A stretch of 40,084 nucleotides of DNA from contig CANRKI010000009.1 in NCBI GenBank assembly GCA_947631175.1, positions 1 through 40,084 of the forward strand, read 5' to 3'. Shown here piece after piece: positions 36,717-40,084 of this stretch (its first letter is position 1; the number at the start of each line of letters is the position of its first letter). The notes under the pieces are model-generated. The model did no database searches, was not told the DNA's origin, and saw only the letters and a list, made by a program, of their open reading frames with translations. Made by a program: the position numbers and the translations under genes. This DNA is from an uncultured Flavobacterium sp. (GTDB lineage Bacteria; Bacteroidota; Bacteroidia; Flavobacteriales; Flavobacteriaceae).

Positions 36717-36750
36717 AAAAAGTCCAAACTGCTTAGTTTGGACTTTTTTT
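36717..36750. terminator. Bidirectional hairpin terminator
   Basis: AAAAAGTCCAAACtgcttaGTTTGGACTTTTTTT. Confidence 0.85.
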
Positions 36751-37759
36751 AACCTAAATTTTTTAAGCTTTTTGTAATTCGTCTTTCTATTACATTTTTA
36801 AGCAATTTTGGACCTAAAACTTCCACATTCTCTCCAAAACCTAAAATTTCTCGTTCTAATTCAAAATTTGGAATTACATCAATACGTATAATTAGTTCCG
36901 TTTCATTATGCAAAACAATTTGTTGGCTGTGGTGCAACGGCTTGGTTAATACATAAGGTGCATTTTTAGAATTGAATTTTAAAATCACTTTTTGCGGTCT
37001 ATCTTTTTCACTACGTGTAACTCCAATACATTCACTATAATAGGTTTCAAAATCAACTCCTTGATACGGTTTGTATAACTTTGCATCTAATTCATAAAAA
37101 GCTTCCATTCGATCTAAAGCCAAAGTAACTAAATGTTCTTGCTCGGCATTACAACAAATTAAAAACCATCGGTTACGATATTCTTTTAATAAATACGGAT
37201 GGTAAATTTCTTTCTTACTTTCGTTTGCTCTAAACGATTTATAAGCTATTAACAAAGGCTTTTGATGAAGAATCGCTTGGTACAATCCATTCAAATACTC
37301 AATTCCCTTTAACTGTTTATTATCTTCGAACTGAATATAATTTGGCGTTTTTCTTGCCGATTTATATATGTTGTTTTCAAGCTTAGCAATCAACTCGGTC
37401 ATTTCATCAAAAAACTGAAAGCCATTAAACTGTTTTAAAAGCGAAACAATTTCTTTCATTTTTTCCACGTCTTCTTCTTTAATAGGCGATTGAGTTATCG
37501 AGTAATTCGCATCCGCATAGGTGTAATATTTACGTTCCTCCACAACAATTGGCGCATTGTAACCCAATTTATCACTTCGCATAAATTGCAAATCAGCCTG
37601 AATGGTACGTTTACTCACACCGGTAGTAATACCTTCAAACTCATATAACGCATCCGAAACCTTTTTTATTAAATCTTCAAGTGTCCATTTTCGGTACGTA
37701 TTTTTTAAACATTGATCAATGGTTTTGTAACGAATTAATGCCGATTTGTTTGTTGCCAT
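36749..37759 (-). CDS. WYL-domain transcriptional regulator
   Basis: N-terminal HTH (KWTLEDLIKKVSDALYEF...VSKRTIQADLQFMR), WYL domain (HPYLLKEYRNRWFLICCNAEQEHLVTLALDRM). Confidence 0.9.
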   Translation of the reverse strand: MATNKSALIRYKTIDQCLKNTYRKWTLEDLIKKVSDALYEFEGITTGVSKRTIQADLQFMRSDKLGYNAPIVVEERKYYTYADANYSITQSPIKEEDVEKMKEIVSLLKQFNGFQFFDEMTELIAKLENNIYKSARKTPNYIQFEDNKQLKGIEYLNGLYQAILHQKPLLIAYKSFRANESKKEIYHPYLLKEYRNRWFLICCNAEQEHLVTLALDRMEAFYELDAKLYKPYQGVDFETYYSECIGVTRSEKDRPQKVILKFNSKNAPYVLTKPLHHSQQIVLHNETELIIRIDVIPNFELEREILGFGENVEVLGPKLLKNVIERRITKSLKNLG

Positions 37760-37905
37760 CTTTTTTAAGAATTAAAATCAATTAAAAATACAATTAACTA
37801 CGCAATATAAATACGTATTAAATTCAAAAAATAAAATTAATTATTTAAAAAAACAAAATAACAACTGATTATCAATAAAATAAAAATAAATTAAAAATAT
37901 TTCAA

Positions 37906-37928
37906 ACTACGCATTTGTACCGCGCAGT
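37906..37928. promoter_or_regulatory. Candidate WYL operator, imperfect inverted repeat
   Basis: ACTACGCA-TTTGTAC-CGCGCAGT; the spacer contains TTTG. Confidence 0.45.
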
Positions 37929-37944
37929 ATAGGCTGCATATTTG
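37914..37944 (+). promoter_or_regulatory. Candidate promoter TTTG-N19-CATATTTG
   Basis: Matches Bacteroidota TTTG/TANNTTTG architecture with one mismatch in -7 box. Confidence 0.5.
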
Positions 37945-37946
37945 CC

Positions 37947-38208
37947 ATGTTCAAAACAATAATGCTTTCTATTCTAATGTTTCAAAAGGCATTGTAGTGC
38001 AGTAGTCTGTATACTGAATCCATTTTATTTTGAACATTTACCTAGTTGTGGGTTCGAGTCCCACTTTTCAGTTATGAAAAAAGTTCAATTGGTAGAACAA
38101 GGATTTTTTTGAGGTTTTCCTCACTTGATTTTCATTCAAGCAAATGTAAAAAGTTGATCACTTATAAAACAGATCTCTAAATAGTTCTTATTAAAAGTTT
38201 CTGTTTTT
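37947..38208 (+). ncRNA. Candidate Y-RNA-like/tRNA-mimic non-coding RNA upstream of slipin-rtcB
   Basis: Long imperfect hairpin, then T-arm (38048-38064), acceptor-like stem-loop (38065-38080), D-arm (38083-38098), two hairpins and terminator-like stem; boundaries inferred. Confidence 0.65.
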
Positions 38209-38235
38209 GGTATTAAATCGAAAGAATAATAATTA

Positions 38236-38287
38236 AAAACACTTGGTCTAAGGCCTGAAATTTTTTAAAGTAATTAACCAAGTTTTT
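38236..38287 (+). terminator. Terminator-like hairpin in slipin leader
   Basis: AAAAcACTTGGTcTAA...TTAACCAAGTTTTT. Confidence 0.5.
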
Positions 38288-38420
38288 CTAAACTATAAAA
38301 TGGAAGATGTAGATTTTATATAACGAAAGTGCAGTTTTTTAATAAAAAATATTTCCGCTGGAGAACAAGGAAACTTTTATAAGACTTTACAAAAACACAA
38401 AAAACTAAATATATACAATT

Positions 38421-39506
38421 ATGAAAAATTACAACATCGCAGAAAACGAAATAGGAATTGTTTATAAAAAAAATGATATTGTTAAAATTATTACTCCAGG
38501 AAATTATTGGTTCTTTTGGGGTGAAAAAATAGAAATCCATTCAACCTTAGAAGCTTTCCCTGAAGTTAAACCTGGTATTTATAACAATTCATTACTAAAA
38601 AATTTTATAGAAATAATTGAAGTTGCCGACGATGAACTTCTTTTACTTTCCAAAAATAAAAATTTTAAAACAGTATTAACTTCTGGAACTTACGCTTTTT
38701 GGAAAAACAAACACGCATTTTCATTTCAAAAAGTTACAATTAAAGATTATAAAATAACAGATGTTAGCCAAAGTATTTTAGCTAAACCAGAAATAAATTT
38801 TTACGTTCGTAATTATAAAATCGAATCTTTTGAAAAGGGTTTACTTTTTGTAGATGGAGAATTTATACAAATTTTAGAACCTGGAAATTATTATTGGTGG
38901 AAAAATGCACAAAATATTATTGTGATAAAAGGAGATATTCGTGTACAAACCTTAGAGATTTTAGGACAAGAAATTTTGACTAAAGATAAAGTACAATTGC
39001 GATTAAACTTTGCCATTCAGTACAAAATAAATGATTTCATTAAAGCCTATGTAGACACAAAAGAAACCGACAAACAATTGTATGTATTACTACAAATGGC
39101 GCTGCGCACTTTAGTTGGTGGTTTAACATTTGATGACTTAATGGATCAAAAATCAAAGATTGCCGAAATAGTGATGACGGAAATTCTTGAAAAATCGGCT
39201 CGTTTGGGTATACAAATTATTGATGCTGGTTTAAAAGATATTATTTTACCTGGTGAAATTAGAGAAATTATGAATCAGGTTTTAATTGCCGAAAAAACTG
39301 CGCAAGCTAACAGCATTATGAGGCGAGAAGAAACAGCTTCAACCAGAAGTTTGCTAAATACCGCCAAATTAATGGAAGAAAATCAAATGTTATACAAATT
39401 GAAAGAAATGGAATACATTGAAAAAATTGCAGAAAAAATCAACTCCATTTCGGTTTCTGGTAGCAATAACGTGGTTACCGAATTGAAACAAATATTCACT
39501 AAGTAA
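38421..39506 (+). CDS. SPFH/band-7 (slipin-like) protein with N-terminal repeats
   Basis: GDIRVQTLEILGQEILTKDKVQLRLNFAIQYKI...LLQMALRTLVGGLTFDDLM...LGIQIIDAGLKDIILPGEIREIMNQVLIAEKTAQANSIMRREE. Confidence 0.88.
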   Translation: MKNYNIAENEIGIVYKKNDIVKIITPGNYWFFWGEKIEIHSTLEAFPEVKPGIYNNSLLKNFIEIIEVADDELLLLSKNKNFKTVLTSGTYAFWKNKHAFSFQKVTIKDYKITDVSQSILAKPEINFYVRNYKIESFEKGLLFVDGEFIQILEPGNYYWWKNAQNIIVIKGDIRVQTLEILGQEILTKDKVQLRLNFAIQYKINDFIKAYVDTKETDKQLYVLLQMALRTLVGGLTFDDLMDQKSKIAEIVMTEILEKSARLGIQIIDAGLKDIILPGEIREIMNQVLIAEKTAQANSIMRREETASTRSLLNTAKLMEENQMLYKLKEMEYIEKIAEKINSISVSGSNNVVTELKQIFTK

Positions 39507-39559: not shown

Positions 39560-40084
39560 ATGAAAAAAATTACCGGAAAAAACTTATTAGAAATAGGCTT
39601 TGATCAAAATAAAATAATTGGAGACGTTTTACAATTTTGCACAAATTATAAAGGAAAATTAAATAGATCGGATATTTTAATTCAACTAAAAAAGGTGCTC
39701 GAATCGCCAGAAATAATCTCTGAAAATTCTGAGTTTTACACCTTAAGTCAAAAAATAATCGATTTAAAAAAATCATTAGAAACAGATGTTATTGCTTTAA
39801 AAGAAACTCCAAAGCCATTTGCTATTTACGGTGAAAACAACATCGAACAAGGTGCAAAACAACAAATGACAACAGCCATGCGATTGCCTATTACAGTTGC
39901 TGGAGCCTTAATGCCCGATGCGCATCAAGGATACGGGTTGCCAATTGGCGGAGTTTTGGCTACTACAAATGCTATTATTCCCTACGGAGTTGGGGTGGAT
40001 ATTGGTTGTAGAATGGCACTTTCTGTTTACAATATTGACGAATTATTTTTTGAAGAAAACAAACATAAATTTAAACGTGAACTT
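39560..40084 (+). CDS. rtcB: RtcB-family RNA ligase (3' truncated by window end)
   Basis: Manual translation from ATG 39560: MKKITGKNLLEIGFDQNK...YGENNIEQGAKQQMTTAMRLPITVAGALMPDAHQGYGLPIGGVLATTNAIIPYGVGVDIGCRMALS; open to window edge, missed by ORF track. Confidence 0.93.
   Translation, partial: MKKITGKNLLEIGFDQNKIIGDVLQFCTNYKGKLNRSDILIQLKKVLESPEIISENSEFYTLSQKIIDLKKSLETDVIALKETPKPFAIYGENNIEQGAKQQMTTAMRLPITVAGALMPDAHQGYGLPIGGVLATTNAIIPYGVGVDIGCRMALSVYNIDELFFEENKHKFKREL

Follow-up and report, generated by a model that had tools for sequence, protein, structure and literature searches.

A Y-RNA-like tRNA mimic upstream of slipin and RtcB genes in Bacteroidota and its possible role as a bait or sensor for anticodon nucleases

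The window, i.e., the whole stretch of DNA that was analyzed, comprises 40,084 nucleotides of an uncultured Flavobacterium sp. (contig CANRKI010000009.1). The RNA described here lies between a divergently transcribed gene for a WYL-WCX regulator and a slipin gene, which is followed by the gene of the RNA ligase RtcB. From this position we assume that it is transcribed as a leader rather than as a separate RNA. The genes and presumptive control elements of the locus are:

36749-37759, minus strand: WYL-WCX transcriptional regulator gene, divergent (Pfam PF13280, 8e-12; PF25583, 5e-9)
37798-37818, no strand: palindrome of the CTACGCA-N7-TGCGTAG type in the promoter region of the regulator, 2 mismatches
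37907-37927, no strand: second palindrome, 5′ of the leader RNA, 2 mismatches
37937-37944, plus strand: CATATTTG, possible Bacteroidota -7 box, read by eye
38421-39506, plus strand: slipin/Band_7 (SPFH) protein gene, 3′ of the RNA (PF01145, 4e-24)
39560-40084, plus strand: gene of the RNA ligase RtcB, truncated at the contig end (PF01139, 8e-16)

The preliminary description of this DNA had placed the RNA upstream of slipin and RtcB, and the PF01145 and PF01139 genes do lie downstream of it. The contig ends at position 40084 within RtcB, and the operon can be read only up to there. As to RNA repair, the window holds RtcB, and relatives have in addition PrfH and, rarely, Rsr. The assignment of CATATTTG is based on TAnnTTTG, which we take to be the Bacteroidota -7 box consensus. 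At least one copy of the palindrome (up to 3 mismatches) is present in about 47 of 63 homologous loci, and the second, regulator-side copy also occurs in L031, L032, L034, L038, L040, L041, L107, L118, L122 and L128. In shuffles the mean number of palindromes was 0.41, and the two copies found here, one on the WYL side and one before the leader, were reached in 6 of 100 shuffles. The palindromes may be the operator bound by the WYL protein. With PADLOC this protein matched two WYL models and one Cas3c model, and neither the slipin nor the RtcB of the window gave a match. A search for a viral relative of slipin did not yield a confirmed case.

The leader RNA itself is composed of the following elements, all on the plus strand:

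37947-37956: closing stem, 5′ strand ATGTTCAAAA, partner 38028-38037 (consensus fold, four close relatives)
38028-38037: closing stem, 3′ strand TTTTGAACAT, same consensus fold
38041-38043: base stem, 5′ strand CCT, at the position of a tRNA anticodon stem (direct reading)
38044-38047: AGTT, variable region of 4 nt (direct reading)
38048-38064: T-arm GTGGG-TTCGAGT-CCCAC, 5 bp, loop TTCGAGT (reading, Rfam, covariation)
38065-38080: acceptor-like hairpin TTTTCA-GTTA-TGAAAA, 6 bp, loop GTTA (reading, conservation, covariation)
38081-38082: AA linker (direct reading)
38083-38098: D-arm GTTC-AATTGGTA-GAAC, 4 bp, loop AATTGGTA (reading, Rfam, covariation)
38099: A, single nucleotide after the D-arm (direct reading)
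38100-38102: base stem, 3′ strand AGG (reading, covariation)
38110-38123: hairpin TGAGG-TTTT-CCTCA (alignment of four close relatives; a full second T-arm stands here in L031, L032 and L107)
38124-38140: anticodon-arm-like hairpin CTTGA-TTTTCAT-TCAAG, 7-nt loop (hairpin search)
38156-38175: 3′ hairpin GATC-ACTTATAAAACA-GATC (fold of four close relatives)

Direct reading placed every element that had been described between 38041 and 38102 at the proposed bases. The pairing of the closing stem is kept by compensatory changes in L032 (GTTAAAAA/TTTTTAAC) and L107 (GTTGAAAG/CTTTCAAC). The base stem is extended to TCCT/AGGA in L031 and L032; this helix covaries in 30 sequences, with all 5 of its 5 pairs changed on both sides. 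In the window it has 3 bp and a variable region of 4 nt, compared with 4-5 bp and 5 nt in most relatives. Judged from the alignment, the hairpin at 38110-38123 appears to be a degenerate second T-arm that has been reduced to a tetraloop hairpin. Relatives, too, have an element like the 3′ hairpin after their modules, with a CTTnTAAAA loop; in the window about 245 nt separate this hairpin from the slipin start codon. When folded as a single sequence, the region is only modestly better than its shuffles (z -1.81). It is well supported that the window copy is reduced, consisting of one intact module and a Glu-type anticodon-like hairpin.

An Rfam cmscan of positions 37000-39500 placed the YrlA family (RF02553) at 38043-38099 with 35 bits (E 2.6e-5 for this 2.5-kb search). 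The match to the YrlA covariance model that had been suggested as a check was thus obtained, but below the gathering score of the family (69 bits), which was likewise missed by the best match of the family search (49.1 bits) and by the best Rsr-linked YrlA copy seen (62.8 bits). No other credible Rfam family, be it a T-box or a leader, was found in the window region or in the relatives scanned. ARAGORN reported no tRNA anywhere in the window, and in place of an open-ended cloverleaf the acceptor stem is closed by GTTA; a functional tRNA was rejected on these grounds. We built a covariance model on 30 modules; it hit a single place in the window with 61.4 bits (E 1.2e-17), a score that is partly circular because the window sequence is among the 30. 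In its own genome the window scores highest with the module 1 model, closely followed by tandem tRNA pairs, and the other high scorers that were checked overlap ordinary tandem tRNA genes. The same holds on a larger scale: sub-threshold YrlA matches occurred in 207 of 301 family genomes and many of them are tandem tRNA pairs. Since they are swamped by such pairs, neither these matches nor those of the module model in 299 phylum genomes can be used as counts, and users of the Rfam YrlA model should be warned that below its gathering score it also picks up pairs of tandem tRNAs. The model searches led to 38 loci; in L130 and L138-L142 of these, convincing modules clear of any ARAGORN tRNA adjoin slipin. 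In L156 the module lies near the edge of the locus, and no slipin is present in the DNA examined there. A few matches in L142, L152 and L153, which have poor arms and TTCAA-type T-loops, appear to be due to chance.

We gathered slipin homologues from a named genome collection, 301 family genomes and 101 genus genomes, and oriented each locus. Modules consisting of a T-arm, a hairpin, a short linker and a D-arm are present in 60 of 63 leaders, and the T- and D-arms predicted for orthologous leaders were therefore found. According to the module lists the three leaders without a module belong to two spirochaetes and Sphingobacterium (L042, L043, L033). One module was found in 18 of the 60 leaders, two in 39 and three in 3. 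The modules lie about 300-800 nt 5′ of the slipin start and are co-directional with slipin in 60 of 63 loci. Relatives usually have two tandem modules, the second often with a full anticodon arm 1 nt past the D-arm. L037 and L039 contain a second module unit with its own 3′ hairpin at about -930 from slipin, compared with about -390 for the other one.

The conservation of these modules is structural. In a looser scan in which the hairpin was not required, 85 modules were recovered in 57 loci with 57 distinct hairpin 5′ strands, and all five of five positions pair in 86% of the modules compared with 3.5% for strands combined from different loci. For 30 first modules 97.7% of the cells are paired, and 16 of 19 pairs have changed on both sides; the covariation score is 0.701, compared with 0.208 for shuffles and at most 0.19 when the partners are slid, and none of 500 shuffles reached it. 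For the module together with the anticodon arm (27 sequences) the score is 0.800 compared with 0.211, with 17 of 19 pairs changed on both sides and again none of 500 shuffles. These scores are somewhat overstated because the sequences were chosen partly for pairing; the looser scan agrees with them, and its offset tests are independent of this selection as regards base stem and arm. With a variable region of 5 nt, all base-stem pairs form (5/5) in 27 of 55 modules, and with other lengths in 0-5; an anticodon arm of 5 bp and 7 nt stands exactly 1 nt past the D-arm in 30 modules, compared with 0-5 at other offsets. Between modules the segment from the T-arm to the D-arm varies from 9 to 31 nt, and the acceptor loops are as short as 3 nt. 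Since the acceptor is capped and this segment is variable in length, the RNA is not an aminoacylatable tRNA, as had been proposed. The order of T-arm, capped hairpin and D-arm and its covariation confirm the circularly permuted tRNA mimic, and given the 60 of 63 leaders and the strong covariation in homologous loci the module is not a product of chance.

Outside the modules the picture is less sharp. Conserved elements are found both upstream and downstream of the modules; in a whole-leader alignment of 42 sequences (MAFFT and RNAalifold) little beyond the T-arms, the first hairpin and the D-arm gave a confident fold, and no reliable alignment was obtained for the upstream domain of the window's group. 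By eye, leaders such as L117 show a conserved TTTCTGTATAG block upstream of the first T-arm and what may be an H-type pseudoknot (TTTGG/CCAAA with GATGGTTTT/AAAACTATC).

We find 66 anticodon-like hairpins (5 bp, 7-nt loop, U33, purine 37) in 48 of the 60 loci, compared with a mean of 5.7 and a maximum of 11 in 100 shuffles. The loops are of Lys, Asn, Leu, Gln, Phe, Tyr, His, Asp, Met or Ile and other types, and by eye Leu-like D-arms occur together with Leu-type anticodons. The hairpin at 38124-38140 is the only one in the window, and its loop TTTTCAT equals the anticodon loop of the tRNA-Glu(UUC) of the same genome; taken alone it is weak, as 132 of 2000 shuffles (6.6%) give some anticodon-like hairpin. 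L031 has CTTGA-TTTAGGC-TCAAG at the same place, with a loop of the Leu-UAG type. A fixed-spacing tRNA-Glu pattern found nothing in 9 genomes, and neither did a search for CAGGTTTTCATCCTG in the window's own genome, whose tRNA-Glu was recovered with a looser pattern.

The preliminary description had drawn a parallel to YrlA. As regards structure it stands: the RNA is kin to YrlA and shares its permuted tRNA-like module of T-arm, capped acceptor and D-arm. The identity with the Ro60/Rsr-bound YrlA of rsr-rtcBA operons does not. A TROVE/Rsr gene was not found in the window's own genome, and among 35 other slipin genomes Rsr was found in 2 and not in 33. Across the phylum 23 of 299 genomes have Rsr. 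The loci around these genes carry the same T-hairpin-D module (YrlA up to 62.8 bits), and no slipin was found in the DNA examined there. An arm at the anticodon offset is present in 1 of 24 Rsr-linked modules, and two flanking motifs, which were derived from the Rsr-linked set itself, occur together in 15 of these 24 and in none of 105 slipin-linked modules. Taibaiella (L034) has both RNAs: downstream of rsr lies a module with the motifs, before slipin one without them. We therefore rejected this identity on the basis of the mostly absent Rsr, the missing flanking motifs and the two classes in Taibaiella. To sum up, the window RNA almost certainly represents, in reduced form, a structured RNA that is conserved at slipin-RtcB loci of Bacteroidota. 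This RNA is built from circularly permuted tRNA modules, followed by a stem at the anticodon position or a true anticodon arm, and is a sister of YrlA found mostly without Rsr. The literature that we searched, in part as excerpts, contained no description of the slipin-leader RNA; earlier reports may exist, and among the bacterial Y-RNA-like tRNA mimics it appears to be an undescribed variant. The lone module described at the outset was correct for the one intact module of the window; it had missed that relatives have tandem modules and anticodon arms, and also the Glu loop of the window, the palindromes and the tRNA arrays.

Such arrays were seen in the wider loci, 14 of 41 of which have at least three ARAGORN tRNAs, mostly upstream of slipin. 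Array and housekeeping loops could be cleanly compared in one genome (G103); outside it the housekeeping set is probably mixed with array members. In this genome array and housekeeping tRNAs differ at position 37 for Asp, Glu, Phe, His, Gln and Pro and are the same for Lys, Tyr, Trp and Leu-UAA, and its housekeeping tRNAs agree with the leader loops. For the anticodons UAG, UUG, UGG and GUG, G37 is found in 15 of 15 leader loops compared with 3 of 37 array tRNAs, and this contrast of A versus G is not biased by the leader filter. For Asp, A37 is found in 3 of 3 leader loops and in 0 of 15 array tRNAs, a contrast that is biased because at this position the filter lets through A and G alone.

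Some further observations were made at these loci. Array loci such as L077 (G103) have a pyrimidine 37 in tRNA-Asp (CTGTCTA/CTGTCTC) and tRNA-Glu (CTTTCTA), from which the housekeeping copies (one genome) differ. A family of proteins of about 230 amino acids is encoded in L076, L077, L081, L082, L087, L090 and L099, near RtcB in several of them; the L076 copy is the peptide release factor PrfH (TIGR03072). In 23 loci between L074 and L099 a conserved protein of some 180 amino acids is encoded upstream of slipin and any tRNA arrays; it looks TPR-like by eye with a lysine-rich tail, and one copy had no match in NCBIfam. Flavo-1 RNA (RF01705) matches at 1331-1404 of L066 (32 bits, near slipin) and at 698-779 of L176 (62 bits, near Rsr).

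What could be the function of this RNA? Ordinary tandem tRNA pairs, too, are matched by the models of YrlA and of the module, which might suggest a chance resemblance or decayed tandem tRNA genes. The hairpin, the base stem and the anticodon arms, however, covary over dozens of loci, by which this reading is refuted, and ARAGORN sees no tRNA in the window; its probability is practically negligible. It is very improbable, too, that the modules are circularly permuted tRNA genes which are processed into working tRNAs with RtcB as the ligase. Permuted tRNA genes of algae and archaea show the same T-acceptor-D-anticodon order, RtcB is adjacent, and the pairing of Leu-like D-arms with Leu-type anticodons (by eye) would fit; yet the acceptor hairpin is capped with loops down to 3 nt, leaving no space for a CCA end, the T-to-D segment varies, and many copies of module 1 have no anticodon arm. 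A constant acceptor of 7 bp is not seen either, the window having 6 bp and a 4-nt loop, and this candidate was rejected. An attenuator or autoregulatory site that competes with whole or cut tRNA for RtcB, slipin or some other factor, and sets the expression of slipin-rtcB, would account for the co-directional position upstream of slipin and for the conserved elements on both sides of the modules. We regard such a cis-regulatory leader as unlikely, considering that no Rfam leader family matches, that about 245 nt lie between the 3′ hairpin and the start codon in the window and that the unit some 930 nt upstream in L037 and L039 would be odd for a purely cis-acting element. A Y-RNA-like scaffold would use its tRNA elbow to bring in an effector, as YrlA brings in PNPase, with slipin, RtcB or another protein perhaps replacing Rsr; such a role is conceivable if doubtful. 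The module is the same as in YrlA next to Rsr in this phylum, Rsr is kept in the neighbourhood in two genomes, and the tethering of Rsr to PNPase by YrlA is described in a review (PMC8394870); the flanking motifs of the Rsr-linked modules, however, are absent, and tethering needs no anticodon arms.

We prefer over the scaffold and the cis-regulatory leader, albeit tentatively and as something short of probable, that the RNA is a bait (decoy) or sensor for anticodon nucleases. The WYL-regulated transcript would fold into tRNA elbows and present anticodon loops of the housekeeping type. With these elbows and loops on display, we propose that enzymes which cut tRNA anticodons would bind or cut the leader RNA, which would then act as a decoy or, if cutting alters the downstream expression of slipin and RtcB, as a sensor. 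Resealing of the cut RNAs might fall to RtcB, and damaged tRNAs might be replaced, in relatives, by array tRNAs whose loops are changed. The leader RNA may have a role in RNA repair. In its favour are the covariation, the linkage to slipin, the anticodon arms, the G37 and A37 loop types, the identity of the window loop with that of its own tRNA-Glu and the context of RtcB, PrfH, arrays and palindromes; against it are the lack of a full second module in the window, the 3-bp base, the z of -1.81 and the varied anticodons. Because the leader anticodons differ between species, no single nuclease is implied. In Salmonella, tRNA fragments or damaged tRNAs induce the repair operon and YrlA has been proposed as a competitive inhibitor of an anticodon nuclease, but the Salmonella nuclease did not cut YrlA, which counts against a bait (PMC7790460). 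In Anabaena a single repressor, TrcR, acts on a 26-tRNA array, on rtcB and on a slipin operon (PMC10272220). Extending the bait to a system of bait and spares, in which one or two permuted tRNAs show housekeeping loops and, beside RtcB, reserve tRNAs changed at position 37 escape the nuclease of the bait, gives a picture that is doubtful as a whole. What Y RNAs do in RtcB operons is left open in PMC7790460. A sister RNA which mostly goes without Rsr, has kept the elbow and has added anticodon arms splits this question and points to the anticodon as the displayed part; combined with the altered reserve tRNAs of these loci, it offers a testable case in which bait, repair and replacement are kept together.

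Compared with known systems, the slipin-leader RNA has the T-arm, the capped acceptor-like hairpin, the two nucleotides and the D-arm of YrlA (RF02553; Salmonella rsr-yrlBA-rtcBA) in the same permuted order with RtcB nearby; it differs in mostly lacking Rsr, in lacking the Rsr-side motifs and in its tandem modules, its anticodon arms and its context of slipin, WYL and tRNA arrays. The Deinococcus Y RNA (RF01053) is likewise a Y RNA and goes with a stress-linked Ro protein, but it had no match in the window or in the slipin leaders scanned and a single weak one, which lies beside an Rsr gene. The RNA resembles the tRNA-like domain of tmRNA (RF00023) in the T-arm, and short sub-threshold matches occur in relatives; unlike tmRNA it has no acceptor end, no tag frame was seen, and the layout is different. 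In the permuted tRNA genes of algae and archaea the 3′ half precedes the 5′ half as in the slipin-leader module, in which, by contrast, the acceptor is capped, the length is variable and no working tRNA results. RtcB occurs with PrfH in several slipin loci as in the RtcB-PrfH pairs of RNA and ribosome repair, and we know of no tRNA mimic in those systems. The trn array and TrcR regulon of Anabaena differs by its RHH repressor in place of a WYL protein and by the separation of the array from the genes, but there, too, a reserve tRNA array, rtcB and slipin are under one control, which is induced by translation stress (PMC10272220).
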